Virus record (IMG/VR): IMGVR_UViG_3300002835_006980
Coordinates: 1 to 34,169 of that record
Strand: one strand, 5' to 3'
DNA length: 34,169 nucleotides
DNA from: a virus
Positions within the stretch are counted from its first letter, which is position 1. Each line of letters starts with the position of its first letter. Both the position numbers and the translations under genes were made by a program. Shown one piece after another: positions 5,406 through 34,157 of the stretch. The notes beneath the pieces were generated by a model. The model was not told the DNA's origin. It saw only the letters and a program-made list of their open reading frames with translations, and made no database searches.

Positions 5406-5624
5406 TTATAAATTTTTTTCTAATATATCAAGGTACTCATTAAAATCCTGTTTGGATGGTGGTCTACCGTCAATGTCGTGAAGACGATTGTAGTAATTTC
5501 TAATTTTTTGAATTGTTTCGTATCCTTCAACCTCATGAAGTCCATCCATTAAGGTATTGTCCCAAAGTCTTTGTTCGTCTTCATTCATGTCCTCCCTTAA
5601 ATAAGGTACTCTATCTTCGCTCAT
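5406..5624 (-). CDS. Small helical acidic protein, unknown
   Basis: The 72-residue protein looks entirely helical and acidic (MNEDEQRLWDNTLMDGLHEV). It has no recognisable domain. Its start codon overlaps the stop of the upstream gene as ATGA, so it depends on translation of that gene. I cannot suggest a role. Confidence 0.55.
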   Translation of the reverse strand: MSEDRVPYLREDMNEDEQRLWDNTLMDGLHEVEGYETIQKIRNYYNRLHDIDGRPPSKQDFNEYLDILEKNL

Positions 5625-5926
5625 AATATGTTTAATTCTTTTCTATATTTTTTTATTTTTTCTCTTGTCTTTTGAAATTCATCTCCGTCACTTGCTTTAT
5701 GACCTTTACCAACAGCCTCTGTGATTATTAATTCGTTTTTTAAAATAAAAGTTAATTTTTCTGAATTTGTCAACTCATAAGGAACAACTTCTGTTCTGAT
5801 GAACTCACGAATCATCCCTCTTATCTTGTCAATCTGCTTAGTTGGGTTACCTTTAGCGTTATGACACATGATAGATGTTTGGTAAATTGTTCTACTTAGC
5901 TCTAATATTTTTTTATCAAATCCCAT
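5621..5926 (-). CDS. Hypothetical helical protein
   Basis: The 101 residues are mostly helical and lack membrane segments or motifs I recognise. Notable pieces are IDKIRGMIREFIRTEVVPYELT and a charged C-terminus (KTREKIKKYRKELNIL). The gene overlaps the downstream small gene by 4 bases and the upstream repeat protein by 11 bases, so the three form one operon. Confidence 0.55.
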   Translation of the reverse strand: MGFDKKILELSRTIYQTSIMCHNAKGNPTKQIDKIRGMIREFIRTEVVPYELTNSEKLTFILKNELIITEAVGKGHKASDGDEFQKTREKIKKYRKELNIL

Positions 5927-6926
5927 CTTTAACTGTATTTTTAATTACACCTTCAACTCTATGTTTATGTGGATAAGAGTCTTCAATAATATCTTTAACC
6001 CCCTCTTGAATGATGTATTCAACGACTCCTTCGTCACCACTTTTTCCCCATAGTGTTCTAGTATCTTCAATACGGTAAAGATTACTACTCTTTTGAAAAC
6101 GGGTCTCTTTTACCCCATTTTGAATGGCATCTTTAATTGACCGAAACGGTTTTTGAAGTCTTTTACTGGTTTGTCTTACCCCATTTTGAATGGTGTCTTC
6201 AACCTGGTTCGCTTTCACCTTTACCGAAAGGTTGGTGTGTCTTACCCCATTTTGAATGACATCTTCAACTTGTATCAAACCACTCTGGAAATTGAAGTGG
6301 GTGTCCTTAACCCCATTTTGAATAGCGTCTTCAACCTCATTATTTTGTTTTGGAGATTCAATTTGATGAACTATTTTACCTTTCATCTCTATTGAACCCA
6401 AATAACCACTAGGTGTTGTTTCTTTCACCCCATTTTGAATGGTGTCTTCAATAACCAAGTCACTAGAATAATTGAAATAATCGGTGTGTCTTACACCATT
6501 TTGAATGGTGTCTTCAACGGTCGTTGAATGATTGACTTTGGAACAGCCGGTGTGTCTTACCCCATTTTGAATGGTGTCTTCAACCCATTTTGGGTAGCTG
6601 CGTTCATCACATTGGGTGTCCTTCACCCCATTTTGGATGGTGTCTTCAACAGGTTTAATACCCAAAAATCTTGATTCAAACCAGTTCTTAATAAAATCTC
6701 TTTCTTCAGTGCAATCCTTACCGATTAGTTCCAACTCACTTTTAAATAGGTTATAGTTGAACCATAAGGTTTTATCGTTTGTAAATTCAACCACCCATTT
6801 TTTTTCTTTGGTGAATATCAACCAAGTTGAACCTTGTTCTGTAACATACTTGTCTGCACCTTCAATCATTTGGTCAAACATTCCAAAAACAAGTTTCTCT
6901 AATTTTTTTCCTGATGGATTTTTCAC
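5916..6926 (-). CDS. Protein with eleven 22-residue repeats (EDTIQNGV repeats)
   Basis: The 336-residue protein has a unique N-terminal region (1-92, WLIFTKEKKWVVEFTNDKTLWF) and then repeats from residue 93 to the end. Each full unit is 22 residues: a conserved 12 (consensus VEDTIQNGV-R/K-x-T) plus 10 that differ completely from unit to unit. About eight units are nearly identical in the 12-residue block; the last ones are degenerate (VEYIIQEGVKDI, VEGVIKNTVKDG). Two linkers are longer by 17 and 16 residues. At DNA level the blocks are also almost identical, including third codon positions, which suggests recent duplication, gene conversion or selection on the nucleotide sequence. I know no family with this repeat. 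It could be a binding-site scaffold or a repeat-driven variable protein. Confidence 0.8.
   Translation of the reverse strand: MKNPSGKKLEKLVFGMFDQMIEGADKYVTEQGSTWLIFTKEKKWVVEFTNDKTLWFNYNLFKSELELIGKDCTEERDFIKNWFESRFLGIKPVEDTIQNGVKDTQCDERSYPKWVEDTIQNGVRHTGCSKVNHSTTVEDTIQNGVRHTDYFNYSSDLVIEDTIQNGVKETTPSGYLGSIEMKGKIVHQIESPKQNNEVEDAIQNGVKDTHFNFQSGLIQVEDVIQNGVRHTNLSVKVKANQVEDTIQNGVRQTSKRLQKPFRSIKDAIQNGVKETRFQKSSNLYRIEDTRTLWGKSGDEGVVEYIIQEGVKDIIEDSYPHKHRVEGVIKNTVKDGI
5999..6654 (-). repeat. 66-bp in-frame repeat array with alternating conserved and variable blocks
   Basis: Near-identical blocks built on the core CCCCATTTTGAATGG (plus strand) start at 6113, 6179, 6245, 6311, 6428, 6494, 6560 and 6626, with a degraded copy at 5999. 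Spacing is exactly 66 bp, except one gap of 117 bp and one of 114 bp, both multiples of three. About 36 bp is conserved and about 30 bp is unrelated between units. All units stay in frame inside the 336-residue protein. Confidence 0.9.
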
Positions 6927-12046: not shown

Positions 12047-12364
12047 TTACATTCTTGAACCTAATCTACTTTCTAAGTCTCTTAATTCATCTCTTTTTGA
12101 TGTATAAGTTCCAAAAGTGTCATCTTCATCGTGTGCACCATAACCTTTTTTAAGTCTTGCCATAATTGAACTTGCAACTTCATTTGGTTTTTCAACAATA
12201 AACTTAGCTAATGTAATCATTTCGTCATTTCCTTTTTCAGAAAATTCAAAAGTTGCGAATATATCATCAAGAATGCTATTGATTTCTCTTCTATCGTTTT
12301 TGTCTTCTTTGATTACACGTCTAACAATACGTGATAAATCTCTTTCAGTTAATCTATTTCTCAT
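12047..12364 (-). CDS. Leader-bearing protein, LTERDL type
   Basis: The 105-residue protein opens with MRNRLTERDLSRIVRRVIKE, a basic amphipathic helix ending in Ile-Lys-Glu at residue 20. Two other proteins here (starts at 15470 and 16359) share this leader almost exactly but have unrelated bodies. The remaining 85 residues are acidic and helical (EINSILDDIFATFEFSEK, then KRDELRDLESRLGSRM) with no known domain. By analogy with T4 capsid-targeting sequences, the leader may direct the protein into the prohead and be cut after E20 by a gp21-like protease; this is inference. A TATATTTAT box lies 15 nt upstream and a terminator follows. Confidence 0.75.
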   Translation of the reverse strand: MRNRLTERDLSRIVRRVIKEDKNDRREINSILDDIFATFEFSEKGNDEMITLAKFIVEKPNEVASSIMARLKKGYGAHDEDDTFGTYTSKRDELRDLESRLGSRM

Positions 12365-13557: not shown

Positions 13558-14403
13558 TTAATAAGTTTTTGTTGTTAATAATACTTTAAGTTCTGGGAAT
13601 TTATATTTAAATTCGTTGTTGAATTTCGGGAACACCCTTATATATGTCTTTTCGTCTTCATCACTACTAGTCCAAGAATTTTTTTTCCAATATGCATTTA
13701 TTTCGTTAATTAGTGCTTCTAATTCTTCTTGTGTCATACTTTCAAACTTATCTAACTTTGCTCTATAGTCAGCCATTGTTGTTTTAAAATTTTGTGCATT
13801 TGCAGAGTCTTGAGCATTTAACTCCGCCCTTTTTTGTATTTCCGCATCTGTCGCAGCTTTTTGAGACGCCGCTGTCGCAGCTTCAGCCTCCGCCGCAGCA
13901 GCTTGCTTTGCATCATTTTGTTTACTTATATTCCAACCCTCGCATTGTTGTTTATAATGTTCAGGACTTTTCCACACTTTATCTTTTTGGTTAGGACAAT
14001 GAGTATCTCTGAATTTTTGTAATTGACTATATGACGTTGCACATCCATTTTTTAATTGTTCTTTCCAATTACCGGTTAAACCTAATGTTGCTTCAGGATT
14101 TTTAATTACTTTACCACCAGAACCGAAAATCGCCCCAGGTTCTTGCGAGGTTCCTTTGTTTGTTGTTACATCATAAAACGAATTAGGGTCCCAAATACAT
14201 TGGTAATAATATTGGTTTTTATCACCTCCCACTGAAAATCCTATATAATACATTCCTTGTTCAACTAAACTGTCTGACCGACCTGCATTATATATATTAC
14301 CCGCCACAGTAGGTTCTTGTTCCTTTAAATACTGTCTTTTAATAGCATTTTTATGCATATTAAGTATTCTACTTTTTTCTTCTTCTGAAATTAAAAACTT
14401 CAT
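13558..14403 (-). CDS. Leader-bearing protein with Ala-rich coiled coil (SEEEK type)
   Basis: The 281-residue protein starts MKFLISEEEKSRILNMHKN and its leader ends at QYLKE, residue 28 (Leu-Lys-Glu). The middle (30-150) has paired Cys residues (NGCATSYS, DTHCPNQ, QQCEGW) suggesting disulfides or metal. Residues about 160-205 are an Ala/Glu-rich coiled coil (AAAAEAEAATAASQKAATDA), then more helix. The leader is the same type as in the array at 15-17 kb, but this protein is larger and has a different C-terminus (TTKTY). A virion-internal role is inferred from the leader only. A TATATTTAT box lies 32 nt upstream. Confidence 0.75.
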   Translation of the reverse strand: MKFLISEEEKSRILNMHKNAIKRQYLKEQEPTVAGNIYNAGRSDSLVEQGMYYIGFSVGGDKNQYYYQCIWDPNSFYDVTTNKGTSQEPGAIFGSGGKVIKNPEATLGLTGNWKEQLKNGCATSYSQLQKFRDTHCPNQKDKVWKSPEHYKQQCEGWNISKQNDAKQAAAAEAEAATAASQKAATDAEIQKRAELNAQDSANAQNFKTTMADYRAKLDKFESMTQEELEALINEINAYWKKNSWTSSDEDEKTYIRVFPKFNNEFKYKFPELKVLLTTKTY

Positions 14404-14987: not shown

Positions 14988-15470
14988 TTATTTAGGTTGT
15001 GCTGGTTGTTTATTTTTAAAATATGTGTTAACAACTTCCGTTACAGCACTTCGTAAAGCTCCAGTAACCGGACCTAGTGTTAACTTAGCGTCGGGTGTTG
15101 ATTTAACATAGTTGGTATATCCATTTACTAAATTTGGTAATAATAAAGAACTTAATTTTACCGTTGGGATATCGGTCCCTTTTACAGTTTCATTATATGA
15201 TATGGCCTGTAATAAAGTTGGGACATCTGGTGAAACTGTTGACGTATATACCGCTTTTCCATCTTTAACAATCGAAATAGTTCCATTGTTATTTAGTTGT
15301 AATGTAATGGTCGGTAATTTATATGCTGTCATTTGACCATCAAACTTAGTTTTCATAGTGTTGAAATAGTTTGTTGCAACTTCTTCTTCCATCAAATATT
15401 GTCTTTCATTGATAACTCTTTTAACAATACGAGTTAGGTCTCTTTCGGTTAGTCTTATAATTTTTTTCAT
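14988..15470 (-). CDS. Leader-bearing cargo protein with hybrid leader
   Basis: The 160-residue protein begins MKKIIRLTERDLTRIVKRVI with Ile-Asn-Glu at 20-22, followed at once by RQYLME. Thus the LTERDL leader and the QYLME end of the other leader type are joined, giving two candidate cleavage sites (after 22 and 28). The body is beta-rich with repeated short strands (ITLQLNNNGTISIVKDGKAV). The C-terminus is KQPAQPK, a variant of the PTQK tail of its neighbours. It is the last gene of a six-gene run. No known domain. Confidence 0.75.
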   Translation of the reverse strand: MKKIIRLTERDLTRIVKRVINERQYLMEEEVATNYFNTMKTKFDGQMTAYKLPTITLQLNNNGTISIVKDGKAVYTSTVSPDVPTLLQAISYNETVKGTDIPTVKLSSLLLPNLVNGYTNYVKSTPDAKLTLGPVTGALRSAVTEVVNTYFKNKQPAQPK

Positions 15471-15486
15471 AGTTATTTTATTTTTA

Positions 15487-15978
15487 TTATTTTTGTGTTG
15501 GTGTCGATTTTTTAATAATTTTTTGTATAAAAACCGTTTGTGGCCCAGATGATGGATTGTTCGGGTCTTTTTTTCTTACAAAACTTGCGGAGTTTCTATT
15601 AAACATAGATGTATCAATTAAATCATCACTTTTCACATTATTAATCGCACTTATAAGTAAATCGGCATCGTTTCCTAACATGATTTCTCCATTTACATAC
15701 TCACCATTTAATTTTTGATTTGTTAATTTATTTGCAAATCCACCATTGATAATCATACTATTTAATATTCCTGTATATTCATTTGCGGCGTTTTTACCAA
15801 GCGGACCTATAGAAAAAGATATGTTTTTATTTCTATCTATTTGACCATTGATTGTTGGAATATTTAAACTTAAAACTACAGATTGAACCGCTTCCATTAA
15901 ATATTGTCTTGAAGTTGCACTTTGATGCATTTCCAAAATTCTACTTTTTTCTTGTTCTGAGATTATAAATTGTTTCAT
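15487..15978 (-). CDS. Leader-bearing cargo protein (SEQEK type) with PTQK tail
   Basis: The 163 residues start MKQFIISEQEKSRILEMHQ and the leader ends QYLME at 25-29. The body (30-158) is predicted beta-rich (VVLSLNIPTINGQIDRNKNI) and unlike the bodies of neighbouring genes, though it shares with them a simple strand-turn-strand texture. The C-terminus is STPTQK. The leader-coding DNA and 12-nt upstream spacer belong to a conserved boundary block. If cleaved after Glu29 by a gp21-like protease, a 134-residue internal protein would remain. Confidence 0.75.
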   Translation of the reverse strand: MKQFIISEQEKSRILEMHQSATSRQYLMEAVQSVVLSLNIPTINGQIDRNKNISFSIGPLGKNAANEYTGILNSMIINGGFANKLTNQKLNGEYVNGEIMLGNDADLLISAINNVKSDDLIDTSMFNRNSASFVRKKDPNNPSSGPQTVFIQKIIKKSTPTQK

Positions 15979-16005
15979 AATTATTTTATTTTATTTTTGA
16001 GTGGG
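15892..16005 (-). repeat. Conserved gene-boundary block 1 (tail codons + spacer + leader)
   Basis: This 114-nt block holds the PTQK-stop end of one gene, the spacer AATTATTTTATT (plus strand) and the 29-codon leader of the next. The same arrangement recurs at 16836-16949 and 17292-17405 with identical spacers and mostly identical leader codons. The coding cores between the blocks are unrelated. Confidence 0.8.
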
Positions 16006-16359
16006 TTTCTTTTTTTTGTACTCTACAATTTGCATTAATAAATTGTCCAAGGTTTCTTTAATTTTACGACCAATTGTTCCATCAAATTGTGATTGCATTC
16101 CCCAACCTCGTAAAGTACTTTTCATAATATAATCACTACCCATATTAACCGGACTGTCTAGTTGTTTCAATGCTCTTTGTGGGTTTTTTATATATCCTCG
16201 GCAAATAATACTGTCATCACTGGCGTCATAACTAAATATAAATGTATAATTCGGAAATTCTAAATTAGGAACTTTTGGTAATGTTGGTGCTTGTTCATTA
16301 ATAACCCTTCTTACAATTCGAGCTAAATCTGACTCAGTTAATCTTACAATTCTTTTCAT
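15991..16359 (-). CDS. Leader-bearing cargo protein (LTESDL type) with PTQK tail
   Basis: The 122-residue protein starts MKRIVRLTESDLARIVRRVI and the leader ends Ile-Asn-Glu at 20-22. The short core (NYTFIFSYDASDDSIICRGY, then DGTIGRKIKETLDNLLMQIV) has one Cys and is not recognised. It ends KKKKPTQK. It carries the second leader type although it sits inside the SEQEK-type array, so leader type and tail are mixed freely. Confidence 0.75.
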   Translation of the reverse strand: MKRIVRLTESDLARIVRRVINEQAPTLPKVPNLEFPNYTFIFSYDASDDSIICRGYIKNPQRALKQLDSPVNMGSDYIMKSTLRGWGMQSQFDGTIGRKIKETLDNLLMQIVEYKKKKPTQK

Positions 16360-16382
16360 TTTTTTGTTTTTTATTTATTTTA

Positions 16383-16922
16383 TTATTTTTGAGTTGGGAT
16401 GTATTCTTTTCCTTTTTTTATTGTAACTCCACCCGTTTTTGGGGTATTTGTATCTGAAAATTTAGTTACATTTCCAGATGGAAAGATTCCAAAGTTTATT
16501 TTAGTTACACCCCCCATTGAAGCTTTCCCGGACAGGTAAATATATCCATCACCACCTTTTACAAATTTTTGAGGACCAAAAGTTGTTATAGTACCTTCAC
16601 CAGCACCACCTCCAAGGTCTATACTATTTAGAGTGTAGGTTTTCATATTTGGGTTTTTACTTAATTCTTTTGCTAAATCTGGGTCACCATCCAAAGCTAA
16701 AAAAGTTGGGACGTATTCCGGCTTGAAAAACGCTTCTTTAGCAGGAACCTCTACAATATTACCTTTTTGGTCTTTAATTTTTTTGTAAGGTAAAGTAATA
16801 ATCACTGAATTGTTTTTACTTGTTGCTACATATTGTTCCATTAAATATTGTCTTGAAGTTGAACTTTGGTGCATTTCCAAAATTCTATTTTTTTCTTGTT
16901 CTGATATAATAAATTGTTTCAT
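16383..16922 (-). CDS. Leader-bearing cargo protein (SEQEK type) with PTQK tail
   Basis: The 179-residue protein begins MKQFIISEQEKNRILEMHQ and the leader ends QYLME at residue 29. The core contains NSVIITLPYKKIKDQKGNIV and a Gly-rich stretch (LGGGAGEGTITTFG), giving a beta-solenoid or sandwich impression. It ends EYIPTQK. Leader DNA is nearly identical to that of the genes starting at 15978 and 17378, but the core is not. No known domain. Packaging in the virion is inferred. Confidence 0.75.
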   Translation of the reverse strand: MKQFIISEQEKNRILEMHQSSTSRQYLMEQYVATSKNNSVIITLPYKKIKDQKGNIVEVPAKEAFFKPEYVPTFLALDGDPDLAKELSKNPNMKTYTLNSIDLGGGAGEGTITTFGPQKFVKGGDGYIYLSGKASMGGVTKINFGIFPSGNVTKFSDTNTPKTGGVTIKKGKEYIPTQK

Positions 16923-16949
16923 AATTATTTTATTTTATTTTTGAGTTGG
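16836..16949 (-). repeat. Conserved gene-boundary block 2
   Basis: This block has the same organisation and length as 15892-16005: PTQK-stop end, the 12-nt spacer AATTATTTTATT and a SEQEK-type leader ending in Leu-Met-Glu. Confidence 0.8.
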
Positions 16950-17378
16950 CATTTGTTTTTCAATAATTGTAGGTTTGACCCCAAATTGAGTGCCTTGTTC
17001 GGCGATAACCATATTCCCTTCTAAAACTTGTGGTCCTTTATTTATCTTTGGTTTTAATATATTGATTTGTTCGGGAGTAAGGGAAAATTGACCATTAATA
17101 ATATTACCTTTTAAAGATTGATAACTTGGTCCCACTTCAATCTGATTAAATAAAGAAATTTGTCTAATTGTTTTTATATTGTGAGTTGAAATATCAGCAC
17201 TAAAAAAAACAGTTGGGGAATATTTTTTAATATTTCCCGGTGCTAAATTATATTGTAAAGTTAAAGACAATAAAATAACCTGAGAAAGGTCTTCGTTTAA
17301 ATATTGTTTTGACGTGGCATTTTGGTGCATTTCCAAAATTCTTTGTTTTTCTTGTTCTGATATAATAAATTGTTTCAT
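16935..17378 (-). CDS. Leader-bearing cargo protein (SEQEK type) with PTQK tail
   Basis: The 147 residues start MKQFIISEQEKQRILEMHQ and the leader ends QYLNE (Leu-Asn-Glu) at residue 29. The core (SQVILLSLTLQYNLAPGNIK, LKGNIINGQFSLTPEQINIL) resembles in style the gene ending at 15487 (both have NGQ/NGEI patterns with a 'LTPEQINIL'-like helix), so these two may be distant paralogs. The end is EKQMPTQK. Its role is inferred from the leader only. Confidence 0.75.
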   Translation of the reverse strand: MKQFIISEQEKQRILEMHQNATSKQYLNEDLSQVILLSLTLQYNLAPGNIKKYSPTVFFSADISTHNIKTIRQISLFNQIEVGPSYQSLKGNIINGQFSLTPEQINILKPKINKGPQVLEGNMVIAEQGTQFGVKPTIIEKQMPTQK

Positions 17379-17405
17379 AATTATTTTATTTTATTTTTGA
17401 GCCGG
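17292..17405 (-). repeat. Conserved gene-boundary block 3
   Basis: The block has PAQK-stop tail codons, the identical 12-nt spacer and a SEQEK-type leader ending in Leu-Asn-Glu. Three such blocks flank unrelated cores. Confidence 0.8.
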
Positions 17406-18071
17406 TCCTGCAATTGTATCATAAACCGTTTTAGCGACTCCTGTTAATTTAGCTCTAGTTTCTTTAGATAGATTTTTTGCGTAGGAACCTAATTTTAAAT
17501 TGTTTGCAATTGTAACTAACTTTGCGGCGTCAAAACCAGGAAAATGTTTGGATATATCGGCAGCAACTTCGTCGTCAGTTTTTACTTCGAGTTTAGTAGA
17601 TAATTTCAATGAACCATTATTGGCTATTATGTCACCAAAACTTCCCGACAAATAAAATTTTTGGGCTGCTGAGCCGCTACCTGTGTCAGGACTACCATAA
17701 AAGAAATACGGAACTTCATTCATTGTAGTATCAGGAAAATCTAAAGTTAGAACCGTTGCCGGATTAGCATATTTGGGTCTACCATATGTTCTTGGTCCAA
17801 AAGTATAGACATATATAGTCCAATTAGTCTGACCTTTTGCCGCTCTAAAATATGCCTTTGAACCATACACACCAACACTTGTTTCTCCTGTTTTATCGGC
17901 AGCTTTAAGTTTTGGTTCCAATACTGTTTTTAAATCAGGATAAGCGGTAAGTAGACCATTGTCATCGGTGATTTCCATCAAAAATTGTCTTGATTTTTCT
18001 TCCATTATTCTATTTTCCAACATCAAGTTTGATTGTTGCATGTGTCTAATTTTACTATAACTTCTATTCAT
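17391..18071 (-). CDS. Leader-bearing cargo protein, first gene of the array
   Basis: This protein of 226 residues starts at the ATG at 18069-18071; the in-frame start further upstream has no support. The leader is a variant: MNRSYSKIRHMQQSNLMLEN, then EEKSRQFLME ending in Leu-Met-Glu at 31-33. The body includes TDDNGLLTAYPDLKTVLEPK, a strand-rich part with AYFRAAKGQTNWTIYVYTFG, and a helical C-terminus ending TIAGPAQK. Leader and tail match the array in design but not in sequence identity. It follows a CATATTTAT box 17 nt upstream. Confidence 0.75.
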   Translation of the reverse strand: MNRSYSKIRHMQQSNLMLENRIMEEKSRQFLMEITDDNGLLTAYPDLKTVLEPKLKAADKTGETSVGVYGSKAYFRAAKGQTNWTIYVYTFGPRTYGRPKYANPATVLTLDFPDTTMNEVPYFFYGSPDTGSGSAAQKFYLSGSFGDIIANNGSLKLSTKLEVKTDDEVAADISKHFPGFDAAKLVTIANNLKLGSYAKNLSKETRAKLTGVAKTVYDTIAGPAQK

Positions 18072-18106
18072 AATTTTATTATTTAAATATAAATATGCCA
18101 ACAAAC

Positions 18107-22635: not shown

Positions 22636-22992
22636 GTGAAAATTTTAGTCAAAGATAACATTTTTAATTGTAAAGTCGTTGCTAATACTGATTCAATTCA
22701 GAAAGGTATGATGGGTAAAAAGTTTGATAATAATTTTGATGGTATGTTATTTATGATGCCAGAGAAAAAAACCCAAACTTTTTGGATGTACAATTGTATT
22801 ATTCCTTTAGATATAATAATGATTGACGGTAATGTGATTACCAAAATAAATCATAATTGTCTTCCTTGTGGTAATGAGGAAGATTGTGAAATGTTTGAAG
22901 GATTTGGAAATACTGTTTTGGAACTTAATGGTGGTACTTGTAAAGAATTAAACATTAAAGAGGGTGACAAAATTAAAACCTCAATGTTTTAA
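22636..22992 (+). CDS. DUF192-like protein
   Basis: I start this 118-residue protein at the GTG at 22636, since an upstream in-frame TTG has no ribosome-binding site. The core matches DUF192: VVANTDSIQKGMMGKKFDNN, then GMLFMMPEKKTQTFWMYNCI, IPLDIIMIDGNVITKINHNC and a C-terminal ELNGGTCKELNIKEGD. DUF192 proteins are small beta barrels of unknown function; most bacterial ones have a signal peptide, but this one does not. Four Cys residues (CLPCGNEEDC plus others) are unusual. It converges on the DHH gene with a four-base overlap of stop codons. Confidence 0.8.
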   Translation: MKILVKDNIFNCKVVANTDSIQKGMMGKKFDNNFDGMLFMMPEKKTQTFWMYNCIIPLDIIMIDGNVITKINHNCLPCGNEEDCEMFEGFGNTVLELNGGTCKELNIKEGDKIKTSMF

Positions 22993-24500
22993 CTATTTTC
23001 AATTTTTTTATTTAAAATATCCACAAAAGTATTTTTCATATCTTTTACTAAATCCGAATAAGTTCTTTTTGGAGTACTTTCTGTTTCATCTTCAAAATTT
23101 ATACCTTCTCTTCTTATTTGATTAAGAGCCGCTTCAATTTGTTTTTCTGACAACTTTCTAAATCTTAAAAGTTTTTGTTTAATGTCTTTAACAAAATTAT
23201 TATCTCCTTCGTAATTTGCAATCGGTAATGTTTCTTCAGGTAAATCTTTAGTGTATGGTTTATCATATCCACTATATAGGAAGTTTATTCCTGATATGTT
23301 GGTAATACATTTATGTCCTCCTGAATTTGCTTTCAGAAAGTCATAACCATTAATAGTTAGTTTTTCAGAATCAAATGAAGGCATTTTACCATATAATGCC
23401 ATCATATCTTTTGTTGTGAATCCAACTGACTCGGGAGTTGCCTCTCTTTCTGAGATTCTTTTAATAATTCTAAAACTTAATATTTCTTTTTCTAATTCAG
23501 GTTTGAAGATATTTAAAACTTCATCTTTGATTTCACCTAAGTTTATACCTTTAAGTGCTCTTTCTTCTTTAAATGGATTACAAGATGCTTGAACCATTCC
23601 GACTTGCCCTCCAAGACCTGTAACTAGAAAGTCTGCGTCAGGGTGTATTCTAAATGGAACGTATCTATCATAAGAACCTTTTCTCATACTACCTAACCCA
23701 TATTGTGATATAACATTTCCTGTTTTTTCTATTGCCCCTTCTTTCTTTCTTGCTTCTATGAATTTTTCTTGATTTTGTGTCATAGTTTCAACCGTGGCAT
23801 ATCCTTGTTCTTTTGCAATTTTTGTTATTGTATTATATAAATTTTCAAGTGATGGTTCGCAGTTCATTACTAAATATTCAAGAAAATTTCTACCATTAAC
23901 CTTATCATTTTTATACGATAAAAGAAGTTTATTAACGACAAGCCCCATCATCATTTTATTTCTTTTAACACTTTCATATTTGTCATACTTAAAAACAAAA
24001 TTCATTACCATTTCTGGAGTTATTTGATTTACAGCAAAGTTTGCCGAATCGACTGTCGATATTAGATATAAATCTTCGTCTTTAAATAAATCTTTTGGTG
24101 AAATTGTTTGAGAAATTGTTTCAACATTGGACCTTGCGTGTTTAAAACTTGTCGCAGTATCGTCTTCGACACCGGATTGACTATCGTGATGGTCTGTATG
24201 AATAACAAACATTGGTTTACCGTGTGCAAAATCAACTAAGACCGGCATAATGTTCCCTTCACCTTCAGGTTTTTTTATTGCAAATTCTTTTGACCCGTAC
24301 TGTATTACTTCACAATCAACAACATCAATACCATTTTGTTCCAAATAGTTTTTCATGGCTATTGCCGTTGTAACACCATCTAAATCTTGATGAAAATAAA
24401 TTTTAGCCTTTGGGTATCTTTTTGCAATATCATTAATATCTCTAATACCTGATTCTTTAATCATCATTCTAAATTGACTTTCAGTTATAATAATTTTCAT
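22989..24500 (-). CDS. DHH-family phosphoesterase with ITESQ-type leader
   Basis: This 503-residue protein shows DHH-superfamily motifs in order: IYFHQDLDGVTTAIAM (FHQDLDG at 36-42), VDFAHG at 89-94 and VIHTDHHD at 99-106. These coordinate two metal ions in RecJ, nanoRNase/pAp phosphatase and related enzymes. C-terminal residues include GGHKCITNISGINFLYSG, reminiscent of the DHHA1-type substrate-binding region. The start MKIIITESQFRMMIKES ends a leader-like helix with Ile-Lys-Glu at 14-16, close to those at 19498 and in the 15-17 kb array. It may therefore be a packaged nuclease or nucleotide phosphatase. The upstream gene's stop overlaps its start as ATGA. Confidence 0.82.
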   Translation of the reverse strand: MKIIITESQFRMMIKESGIRDINDIAKRYPKAKIYFHQDLDGVTTAIAMKNYLEQNGIDVVDCEVIQYGSKEFAIKKPEGEGNIMPVLVDFAHGKPMFVIHTDHHDSQSGVEDDTATSFKHARSNVETISQTISPKDLFKDEDLYLISTVDSANFAVNQITPEMVMNFVFKYDKYESVKRNKMMMGLVVNKLLLSYKNDKVNGRNFLEYLVMNCEPSLENLYNTITKIAKEQGYATVETMTQNQEKFIEARKKEGAIEKTGNVISQYGLGSMRKGSYDRYVPFRIHPDADFLVTGLGGQVGMVQASCNPFKEERALKGINLGEIKDEVLNIFKPELEKEILSFRIIKRISEREATPESVGFTTKDMMALYGKMPSFDSEKLTINGYDFLKANSGGHKCITNISGINFLYSGYDKPYTKDLPEETLPIANYEGDNNFVKDIKQKLLRFRKLSEKQIEAALNQIRREGINFEDETESTPKRTYSDLVKDMKNTFVDILNKKIENS

Positions 24501-25498
24501 AAATAAGTTTCTCCAATATTTGTTAATTCTTCAGAAGAATATTTATCGCCATTTTGTTTTTTTCCTCCATTTGTAACTTCCCAACCAATCATTCTGTTAA
24601 TAATACTTTGTTGTATCCATTTGTCAGTTAGAGGATTTCCAAGTCTGTAATTACTTTCTTCAGGATTATTATAAAAATAAAGTTGTTTACCAATATCCCA
24701 ATATGCCCAACTTTTACTCATACCCGCAGCGCTTATTTCTTTATTTACTTTGGTTGTCATCAAATTTTTGAACCTGTCAACTAAATTATTTACCAACGAT
24801 TCAATTTCATTTGGGTTTTCTTTTGATAATGCTTCGGCGTATTTTTTCATACTTTCACTGGGTTCTGCAGTATTAAATCCAACATCACTGTAGTTTAATT
24901 TTGATATGTATTGGTCAGGACCGCTCGTTGGTTTGTTTTTTTTGATGTTTGGTTGATTAGTTTCAAAATTTGAGGTTATTTTATTCGCACTAGCTATTCT
25001 TTTTAATCTATAAACCCTTTCTTTTAGTCCTGGTATTTCGTCAACAATTTTATTTACTTTGTCCCAATTTATGGGTTTATCATAGAGTAGTATATCAGAA
25101 CGCAAATCTAAATCATAACATTGATTTTCAGACCCCCCATTAAGAAGACATAACGCTTGTTTCATTTCCAAGTACCGTTGATTTCCAGTTCCCCAAAAAT
25201 GTTTACGTACATAATCTATAAACTTGAAGTCTCTTCTAAATAAATTTATTAATTCATCAATGGACTTGGCTTCTTCTATTTTTTCATAAACAAAAATTCT
25301 TTCCCCAGCATCAATAGATTCTTGTCTTAGTTCTAAATATTTTCCCCCATTATTCATTTGATTTACAGCATCCTCATGTGATGTATTTTTAACATATTCA
25401 AACCAATTATCTATAATTTTTTTATCCTCTTCTTTAGTTTCACAAATTCCCATGACTTGTTTAATTCTTAAAATTTGTTCGTTGAGGATTGTATTCAT
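24497..25498 (-). CDS. Hypothetical helical protein, 333 residues
   Basis: The ATG at 25496-25498 is used. The protein starts MNTILNEQILRIKQVMGICE, which resembles the leader style (LNEQ) but lacks a clear Leu-X-Glu junction except Leu-Asn-Glu at 5-7. The rest is helical and charged, with SWAYWDIGKQLYFYNNPEES and NMIGWEVTNGGKK-like segments near the C-terminus. No family is recognised. It is cotranscribed with the DHH phosphoesterase. A TATATTTAT box lies four bases before the start. Confidence 0.65.
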   Translation of the reverse strand: MNTILNEQILRIKQVMGICETKEEDKKIIDNWFEYVKNTSHEDAVNQMNNGGKYLELRQESIDAGERIFVYEKIEEAKSIDELINLFRRDFKFIDYVRKHFWGTGNQRYLEMKQALCLLNGGSENQCYDLDLRSDILLYDKPINWDKVNKIVDEIPGLKERVYRLKRIASANKITSNFETNQPNIKKNKPTSGPDQYISKLNYSDVGFNTAEPSESMKKYAEALSKENPNEIESLVNNLVDRFKNLMTTKVNKEISAAGMSKSWAYWDIGKQLYFYNNPEESNYRLGNPLTDKWIQQSIINRMIGWEVTNGGKKQNGDKYSSEELTNIGETYL

Positions 25499-25502
25499 AA
25501 CA

Positions 25503-25511
25503 ATAAATATA
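25503..25511 (-). promoter_or_regulatory. TATATTTAT box abutting a start codon
   Basis: The minus-strand box lies four bases before the ATG at 25498, the same geometry as at 19876-19884. Confidence 0.45.
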
Positions 25512-25518
25512 CTATAAA

Positions 25519-25548
25519 ACAAAAATCCCCACTATAATGGTGGGGTTT
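25519..25548 (-). terminator. Terminator overlapping the methyltransferase 3' end
   Basis: On the minus strand CCCCAC pairs with GTGGGG around a seven-base loop, then ATTTTTG follows. The stem encodes the last residues of the methyltransferase. Confidence 0.75.
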
Positions 25549-26383
25549 CTTGTAGAGTTTCTAATGTTTTGAAGTATTCAACTCTTGTTCTTGCGATATT
25601 TGTATAATTTTCACTTAGTTCTATTCCCAACCACCTTCGGTCAAGTATTTGTGCGGCCACTAAACTAGTACCACTACCAGCGAATGGGTCCATAACTATA
25701 TCGTTCTTGTAGGATAGTATTTTAATCGCTTTGGTTGGAATGTCCATCGAGAACGTTGCCTTGGTGAGTGATTTAGTATCTGCAAAGTAATTCCACTGAC
25801 CAAACACAAGTTCCATAAACTCTTTCTTATCCTGTTCTTCATATACATTTTTAGTTCTTACTATACCATCTTTATTTTCAACCTCAGTTGGTGTTCCTAT
25901 CCATTGCGGTTCTCCTTTAACTTTTTTAATATGATGTTTTTTATATGCTAAAATAACACACTCTTTTGGGTTGTAGATATAAGGTGATGATGGGCTCATC
26001 CAAGAACCCCAAGCTGTAGTTTTACTTCTATGTGGTGATTGTTCTTCAAGGTCGACAATACCAAAAAAACCAAATCCAATTTCTTTCATGATTTGCCACA
26101 TTTCAGAAACAAAGAAAATACGTCCACCTTTTTTTTGTCTGTTGATTTCATAGGGAATGTTCAAAGCGATACGTCCATCGTCTTTTAATAATCTATATGT
26201 TTCAGACAACCAAGACTTAGCAAATTCAACATACTCTGTGAACTCAACATCATCTTCATGTACGTCATAATCAATTCCCACACCATATGGTGGACTTGTA
26301 ACAACCAAATCAATACACCCTTCTGGTAATGTCTTCATTACCTCAATACAATCTCCATTAATTATTCTTCCTGTTTCTATCAT
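25532..26383 (-). CDS. Site-specific DNA methyltransferase (N6-adenine or N4-cytosine)
   Basis: The 283-residue enzyme has the catalytic motif TSPPYGVG at 29-36 and the SAM-binding motif DPFAGSGTSLVAAQ starting near 232, which is the beta-class order of amino-methyltransferases (Pfam N6_N4_Mtase). TSPPY occurs in both N4-cytosine and N6-adenine enzymes, so the target base is not decidable. A long insert (about 120-210) should hold target recognition. No restriction enzyme gene is nearby, so it probably protects phage DNA from host restriction. It ends in a terminator. Confidence 0.93.
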   Translation of the reverse strand: MIETGRIINGDCIEVMKTLPEGCIDLVVTSPPYGVGIDYDVHEDDVEFTEYVEFAKSWLSETYRLLKDDGRIALNIPYEINRQKKGGRIFFVSEMWQIMKEIGFGFFGIVDLEEQSPHRSKTTAWGSWMSPSSPYIYNPKECVILAYKKHHIKKVKGEPQWIGTPTEVENKDGIVRTKNVYEEQDKKEFMELVFGQWNYFADTKSLTKATFSMDIPTKAIKILSYKNDIVMDPFAGSGTSLVAAQILDRRWLGIELSENYTNIARTRVEYFKTLETLQETPPL

Positions 26384-33179: not shown

Positions 33180-34157
33180 TTATGGAAGTAAATCTTCTAC
33201 AAAGTCCAAATGTTGATAATCTTGATGGTATAAAATATCATTTTGCCAATTCTGTAGTTCGGGAGTTGGGTAATTCCAATGTGGGGTCATTGCAATTACT
33301 TTAGTCCCATCATGTTCCAAACTTTTAAATGTTGCCTCTTGTTCCACAGTTTTACCGTTACGATACTTTTTAACCATCCTTGGTAATTTTAAAGTTCCGA
33401 GTTTGTAAAGTAAGTTAATATTTGCAAGTTGAATTTTAGCAACTTGTGAAAACTCTAATGATGGTGTTTCATTAAATCTAGTCCTTTCTTGAACATTTAA
33501 TATTTCATCTATTTTATATCTATATTCCACAGTTATTCTATCATCACCATCGGTTGAATCTTTACGAATTGAGAATATTAAACAATCCGGTCTTTCTGAA
33601 TACCCACGAACACAATTTCGTTGGTGTTGTGATTCTTTTTCATAGTCCATAGTCTTTCTTAAAAGAACAGGATAATAAGTTTCACCTTGGTGTTCAATGG
33701 GTGTTTCTAAACTATCAACATCACCATAGAATCTTTCAACTTCACCTTTTCTGTACGATTGTAAAAGACGACTAAACTCCTCATGTTCTAAATTAAAACT
33801 ACTAATGTTTGTGAATTTAAATTTAACATCTTCACCAAGATTTATTAAATCTTTTTTCATCACTAAATGGTCAATTAAAGTTCTCCATTTATAATGGTCA
33901 AAATATGGCATCAAATCTAAAATTCTATCTTTTTCTTTTGGAGTTAAAGGAACTAATGTTCTACCCAAGAAATATTGATTAAATTGTTCTTTATCTGAAT
34001 AAAAACATTCATAAGACCCGCCCATTCGATTCATTTCTATTGGCATTGTCTCATCACCATAGTATGATTCAAATACTTTGTTTTCAATTTTGTTAAACCT
34101 ATCAATTCCCAAAAGATTATATGTTAGATACAATCTATCAAAATCAATCCATTCCAT
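33180..34157 (-). CDS. PcfJ-like protein, 5' end may extend past the window
   Basis: The frame gives 325 residues from an ATG at 34155-34157 but stays open to the window edge, so the true start may lie outside. The middle resembles PcfJ-like proteins: DYEKESQHQRNCVRGY (NCVRGY at 181-186), SERPDCLIFSIRKDS, then RITVEYRYKIDEILNVQERT. In that family a His-Cys-Val-x-x-Tyr-like motif precedes a strand-rich domain; here His is replaced by Asn. PcfJ proteins occur on plasmids and phages, with unknown biochemical activity. The C-terminus is Tyr/His-rich (TPHWNYPTPELQNWQNDILY). No signal peptide is visible. Confidence 0.7.
   Translation of the reverse strand: MEWIDFDRLYLTYNLLGIDRFNKIENKVFESYYGDETMPIEMNRMGGSYECFYSDKEQFNQYFLGRTLVPLTPKEKDRILDLMPYFDHYKWRTLIDHLVMKKDLINLGEDVKFKFTNISSFNLEHEEFSRLLQSYRKGEVERFYGDVDSLETPIEHQGETYYPVLLRKTMDYEKESQHQRNCVRGYSERPDCLIFSIRKDSTDGDDRITVEYRYKIDEILNVQERTRFNETPSLEFSQVAKIQLANINLLYKLGTLKLPRMVKKYRNGKTVEQEATFKSLEHDGTKVIAMTPHWNYPTPELQNWQNDILYHQDYQHLDFVEDLLP

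Follow-up and report, generated by a model that had tools for sequence, protein, structure and literature searches.

A phage gene that seems to grow by swallowing host DNA, in the manner of a CRISPR memory

A gene on a phage fragment from IMG/VR (record IMGVR_UViG_3300002835_006980, positions 1 to 34,169; "the window" denotes this whole stretch of 34,169 nucleotides) has the geometry of a CRISPR array and the open frame of a protein, which raises the question of what kind of element it is and where its unrelated blocks come from. The original prediction described conserved blocks of about 36 bp alternating with unrelated blocks of about 30 bp at an exact 66-bp period, all in one frame. The alternation and the single frame hold across the minus-strand ORF 5916-6926, but the period is not exact, as two of the variable blocks are 81 and 78 bp long. 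After a domain of ~92 aa come the 36-bp repeats (VEDTIQNGVRHT), spaced by variable blocks that are mostly 30 bp long:

5916..6926, minus strand: array gene, 336 aa, GTG start, TGA stop; ORF with at least 63 distinct relative arrays in IMG/VR
6651..6926, minus strand: conserved N-terminal domain, ~92 aa, predicted H-EEEE-H-H (AlphaFold2 pLDDT about 92)
6615..6650, minus strand: repeat 1, VEDTIQNGVKDT
6585..6614, minus strand: variable block 1, QCDERSYPKW; near-identical copies in the L012 and L014 arrays
6549..6584, minus strand: repeat 2, VEDTIQNGVRHT
6519..6548, minus strand: variable block 2, GCSKVNHSTT
6483..6518, minus strand: repeat 3, VEDTIQNGVRHT
6453..6482, minus strand: variable block 3, DYFNYSSDLV; diverged relative of DYFEYTNNTL of other phages
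6417..6452, minus strand: repeat 4, IEDTIQNGVKET
6336..6416, minus strand: long 81-bp block, TPSGYLGSIEMKGKIVHQIESPKQNNE; kept in many relative arrays
6300..6335, minus strand: repeat 5, VEDAIQNGVKDT
6270..6299, minus strand: variable block 5, HFNFQSGLIQ
6234..6269, minus strand: repeat 6, VEDVIQNGVRHT
6204..6233, minus strand: variable block 6, NLSVKVKANQ
6168..6203, minus strand: repeat 7, VEDTIQNGVRQT
6138..6167, minus strand: variable block 7, SKRLQKPFRS; the same block occurs in L019
6102..6137, minus strand: repeat 8, IKDAIQNGVKET
6024..6101, minus strand: 78-bp block, RFQKSSNLYRIEDTRTLWGKSGDEGV; also present in L017 and L018
5988..6023, minus strand: repeat 9, degenerate, VEYIIQEGVKDI
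5958..5987, minus strand: variable block 9, IEDSYPHKHR
5916..5957, minus strand: terminal degenerate repeat and tail, VEGVIKNTVKDGI-stop; the final DGI-stop shares bases with the ATG of the following gene
5621..5926, minus strand: conserved downstream 101-aa ORF, 11-nt overlap with the array gene; relatives in 37 of 78 loci searched

The repeats start at ORF nucleotides 277, 343, 409, 475, 592, 658, 724, 790, and 904, with a degenerate one at 970; all share a single reading frame, and those nearest the C-terminus are degenerate. Near-identity of the repeats even at silent positions, also predicted, does not hold strictly in the window copy (GGG/GGT, GTG/GTA/GTT, GAC/GAT, and ATT/ATC all occur) but is true of the youngest array, L024, whose eight complete repeats are all identical and are joined by a truncated ninth at the contig end.

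Small ORFs surround the gene, with thymidylate synthase nearby. The overlap of the 101-aa ORF with the array-gene stop belongs to one clade, and other clades have other neighbors; in one of these (L153, L134, L135, L138, and L142), a small P-loop protein (MEKILYLVRGxPGSGKSTFAKT) is next after the array gene. A PcfJ-like protein at 33180-34157 of the window (PF14284, E 5.5e-5, just below the cut-off) has relatives in eight array-bearing loci. Window ORFs at 14988-18104, 12047-12364, 13558-14403, and 22989-24500 have common N-terminal motifs (MKQFIISEQEKNRILEMHQ..., MKRIVRLTESDLARIVRRVINE), often with a PTQK C-terminus. This series looks like one carrying a common virion or prohead targeting signal, comparable to that of T4 internal proteins.

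The array gene occurs in many uncultured Bacteroidota phages in IMG/VR. A direct search found 27 relatives and a profile of the N-terminal domain 160, of which 80 were kept. At least 63 distinct relatives carry 2-26 units, and the analysis covered 63 distinct arrays with 621 units. Some phages have tandem paralogues with different blocks. The N-terminal domain has no Pfam, NCBIfam, PADLOC, or PDB match and only weak, unnamed matches in PHROG, and its confident structural model is without a close match of known function. The array protein is absent from 50,697 phage records, an initial search of genome contigs with it returned no relative, and no profile of the known tandem-repeat protein families matched it above the curated cut-off.

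A different repeat, VERILQKEVKDT, forms further arrays with the same 12+10 layout in other genes of a 190-kb contig (G001). These VERILQKEVKDT-plus-10-aa arrays (L049 at G001:18000-22500, L050, and G001:40054-41988) are parts of domain-plus-array modules that are repeated and fused to other domains, and one such gene has a weak nucleotidyltransferase match. The same contig encodes short leucine-rich-like repeat proteins (LDLRGTNITSLGNLTHVGG) with a 60/63-bp period at 24720-26077 and 68928-69449.

Judged from its sequence, the array gene is translated in one frame. Independent 30-mers contain no in-frame stop (0/112, against 72 expected from composition), while stops are many in the other frames. 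Segments between repeats have lengths that are multiples of three (295/391 are 30 bp), and a separate DNA-level scan of the arrays found no frame-breaking or stop-bearing unit. Variable blocks common to different phages differ mostly at synonymous positions (pS 0.24, pN 0.07, pN/pS 0.30; 116 pairs), and, family-wide, repeats within one array have a pS of 0.44 versus 0.50 in the N-terminal domain. The second codon positions of the 30-mers are A-rich, which we take as a sign of selection for polar residues. Since the array is translated in frame, it is not an ordinary CRISPR array, and since persisting blocks are under purifying selection, their peptides matter. As to the options originally offered, translation is supported by the absence of stops and broken units and by the synonymous excess in shared variable peptides, and a nucleotide element of the crRNA type is disfavored as the main function by the coding constraint.

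The arrays change by whole units. The phages L106 and L108 are identical over the N-terminal domain (340 bp) and 1530 bp downstream, and the blocks present in both are identical, yet several whole units distinguish their arrays. The same blocks also occur in phages whose N-terminal domains are only ~61-66% identical in DNA, in agreement with the recombination-driven exchange that had been suggested. The blocks fall into about 250-270 mutually unrelated families, and among 384 blocks there are nearly no partly alike pairs. New blocks therefore do not arise by gradual change, and the slowly diverging segments of a plain solenoid, which would have spoken against the original reading, were not found. 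At the level of array comparison, units are gained and lost whole and the variable blocks are without common ancestry.

The arrays also carry traces of how units are gained, read from comparison of arrays rather than from insertion events themselves. The two repeats beside a block are within 1 nt of each other for 18.6% of unshared blocks, 6.1% of those shared by 1-2 arrays, and 1.2% of those shared by at least 3 (Fisher p 5e-6). In L106, a private repeat variant stands on both sides of YPKELSPTCR, and likewise around SSVTLALTRC. Repeats resemble their neighbors more closely than they resemble remote repeats (p 5e-10), young units lie toward the 5' end near the N-terminal domain (mean relative position 0.27 vs 0.47, p 1.3e-6), and repeat degeneracy increases with position in the array (p 3e-7, 63 arrays). 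Duplicated flanking repeats and 5' polarity may be read, indirectly, as marks of CRISPR-like spacer insertion.

The composition of the blocks points to an outside source. Block G+C declines as the flanking repeats degenerate, from 0.44 beside intact repeats to 0.33 beside degenerate ones (rho -0.21, p 0.001), and young blocks lie above the G+C of the phages. At codon boundaries, young blocks avoid TA (0.53) and have an excess of AA (1.53), a natural dinucleotide bias beyond what a filter against stops can produce; the young blocks thus appear to be foreign and templated, and untemplated random synthesis is ruled out. An apparent excess of inverted repeats in the blocks disappeared when they were compared with natural phage fragments.

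For a few blocks, a source gene can be named. The RYAVPRRWNA block is a piece of rpoB (sense, +1 frame, 28/30); 29/395 Bacteroidota genomes contain it with no more than 3 mismatches, and 0 contain the reversed pattern. TELEDLSIKY corresponds to relA/spoT (sense, in frame; 25-26/30 in three genomes) and DDVSVTHHGK to pseB (antisense, 26/30); an independent plasmid search touched, at the corresponding places in the query, records annotated RelA/SpoT and pseB. With 26 blocks as query, 7/203 genomes gave matches at E<=0.01, one of them a chance match spanning two blocks, against 0/203 for the reversed control. These searches were made after the arrays had been seen and with many queries, in genomes that may not be those of the true hosts. 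We regard three source genes as convincing (rpoB, spoT, and pseB), none of them for a block of the window copy.

Other searches bound this result. Searched in 188 genomes with 3 mismatches allowed, four young blocks had no match, nor had 47 other young blocks (397 family members; E<=5e-4, two candidates scored per genome). Peptide matches of blocks to F. covae proteins (trxB, accA, panB, lysS, nuoB, DAHP synthase, and others) are suggestive only, since a test with shuffled peptides, covering about 60% of the F. covae genome, gave no overall significance. In phage records, 70 blocks had chance-level matches only. An exact IMG/VR search of four blocks returned their own phage only. The phages' own genomes were rejected as a source, with none found in 772 kb of phage sequence; ten high scores there, not inspected singly, are probably array copies that escaped masking. 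The most recently gained inserts resemble fragments of genes from bacterial chromosomes.

The repeat itself resembles those of type VI-B CRISPR arrays. Its reverse complement matches the two published VI-B repeats (F. columnare and F. branchiophilum; PMC5395568) at 22-24/36 positions in the same register, with no shift. Shuffled sequences score 13 on average (p<0.001) and synonymous recodes of the same peptide average 18-20/36 (p 0.002-0.011), and the likeness is largely a consequence of the encoded peptide. The array repeat ends GGTG...CAAC, while the VI-B family has 36-nt repeats of the form GTTG...CAAC with a TTTTGAAGGG core. Spacers acquired in F. columnare are 28-32 bp, mostly 30, come from both host and phage, and enter an array whose GTTGT repeat end is leader-distal (PMC8092290). 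Given this orientation, new units are expected on the N-terminal side, matching the observed polarity.

We therefore consider it likely that the gene is a protein-coding CRISPR-like array that captures host DNA, probably via host Cas1-Cas2. A 30-bp host fragment would be inserted at a repeat and the 36-bp repeat duplicated, as in CRISPR adaptation; only inserts that keep the frame open would survive; blocks would then be shuffled among phages by recombination at the repeats, drifting to phage composition, and those that persist would be kept as protein modules. The host Cas1-Cas2 adaptation complex, working on the VI-B-like repeat, would be the most likely agent, as suggested by that likeness, the 30-bp size, and the leader-distal GTTGT end. 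A stronger version, in which the phage gene uses host CRISPR adaptation to load random 30-bp pieces of the host chromosome, generating protein diversity and possibly acting as an immune-memory sink, is conceivable, and we put it forward tentatively.

Capture could also proceed by another route, with host DNA inserted by microhomology or template-switch repair, or by a phage integrase. The absence of Cas1 from 16 phage contigs (which may be incomplete) is compatible with such a route; the constant 30-bp size (295/391), whole-repeat duplication, and 5' polarity, however, are marks of CRISPR adaptation, and they make this route somewhat doubtful in our judgment.

Capture would be unnecessary if the gene encoded an ordinary tandem-repeat protein, with the 12-aa motif as a structural element or linker and the 10-aa segments as surface loops, shaped by unequal crossing-over, phage recombination, and strong diversifying selection. 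Coding conservation (pN/pS 0.30) and the exchange of blocks among phages fit this explanation, as does the AlphaFold2 model of the whole protein, in which the repeat region tentatively forms beta-hairpins that turn at NG (pLDDT 52-65, not confident). A repeat-only construct, however, has no confident fold (pLDDT 37) and is predicted to be disordered, and the lack of intermediates, the array-specific blocks bracketed by near-identical repeats, the G+C and dinucleotides of young blocks, and the host matches out of frame and antisense all speak against a plain repeat protein. We judge this explanation unlikely.

It is very improbable that a functional VI-B-type array or RNA anti-CRISPR lies antisense in the ORF, supplying crRNAs or repeat decoys for host Cas13b. 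The 36/30 geometry, the in-register repeat match, and the similar spacer sizes of F. columnare (PMC8092290) would suit it, but repeats and blocks are under coding constraint, and the pseB block is oriented wrongly for targeting RNA. Genuine VI-B arrays from GTDB genomes, with a 66-bp period (65-67 bp spacing), have stops in almost every frame, whereas block lengths here are multiples of 3. The array repeat has no Rfam CRISPR match, and a hairpin in it, as RNA or DNA, was rejected: stem positions look conserved, yet folding is no better than for shuffles. A polypeptide precursor, in which the 12-mers would be recognition or cleavage sites freeing variable 10-aa peptides, has the hypervariable cassettes between conserved flanks and the predicted disorder in its favor but is scarcely credible, as the blocks resemble host DNA in arbitrary frames and the neighbor comparison revealed no conserved processing enzyme beside the gene.

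If host-DNA capture into a coding array is correct, CRISPR-kind sequence memory would extend beyond guide RNA: a virus would build protein by DNA capture and repeat duplication, turning host genes, read in arbitrary frames, into new coding sequence. New protein segments would then have a natural source that is both fast and datable, and phages would have a novel means of exploiting the adaptive immunity of their hosts. Coding arrays of this kind are filtered out by CRISPR search tools, through ORF masking or a penalty on coding arrays. The most likely role of the product, though weakly supported, would be that of a protein of early infection that binds variably through its exchangeable 10-aa segments, and diversion of host spacer acquisition might be an alternative or added benefit.

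Among the closest known systems are the VI-B and II-C arrays found in Flavobacteriia (F. columnare and F. branchiophilum), which likewise have 36-bp repeats, 30-bp inserts, polarity, inserts from resident DNA, and repeat duplication on insertion, the last inferred for the phage array. The comparison with CRISPR arrays drawn at the outset is apt for the gain of units: near-identical direct repeats separate unrelated, fixed-length blocks, repeat duplication and polar growth emerge indirectly from array comparison, and the rpoB, relA/spoT, and pseB fragments place the source of a few traced blocks in other DNA. Unlike those arrays, the phage array is translated on the opposite strand, in an open frame with no stops, frameshifts, or broken units; it lies within a gene with a conserved N-terminal domain, its blocks are under protein-level purifying selection, and no cas1 accompanies it in the 16 phage contigs. 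Multi-core RiPP precursors, such as those of cyanobactins, combine hypervariable cassettes and conserved flanks in one gene; in the phage array, by contrast, no modifying enzymes were noticed and the cassettes would be fragments of host genes, whatever the frame. Diversity-generating retroelements are phage-borne diversifiers of protein that introduce adenine-directed changes relative to a template repeat, whereas the array blocks are unrelated at all positions rather than adenine-mutated, no template repeat was noticed, and no copy of the blocks occurs in 772 kb of the phages. RNA anti-CRISPRs, or solitary repeat units, share the phage-borne resemblance to CRISPR repeats but are solitary and intergenic, whereas the array is multi-unit and inside an ORF; the search that described them masked ORFs and found no type VI unit (PMC10651486). 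Finally, tandem-repeat proteins mistaken for CRISPR arrays are coding repeats with CRISPR geometry (CRISPRidentify, PMC7913763); in contrast to these, the blocks of the phage array appear to have been acquired rather than to have diverged.
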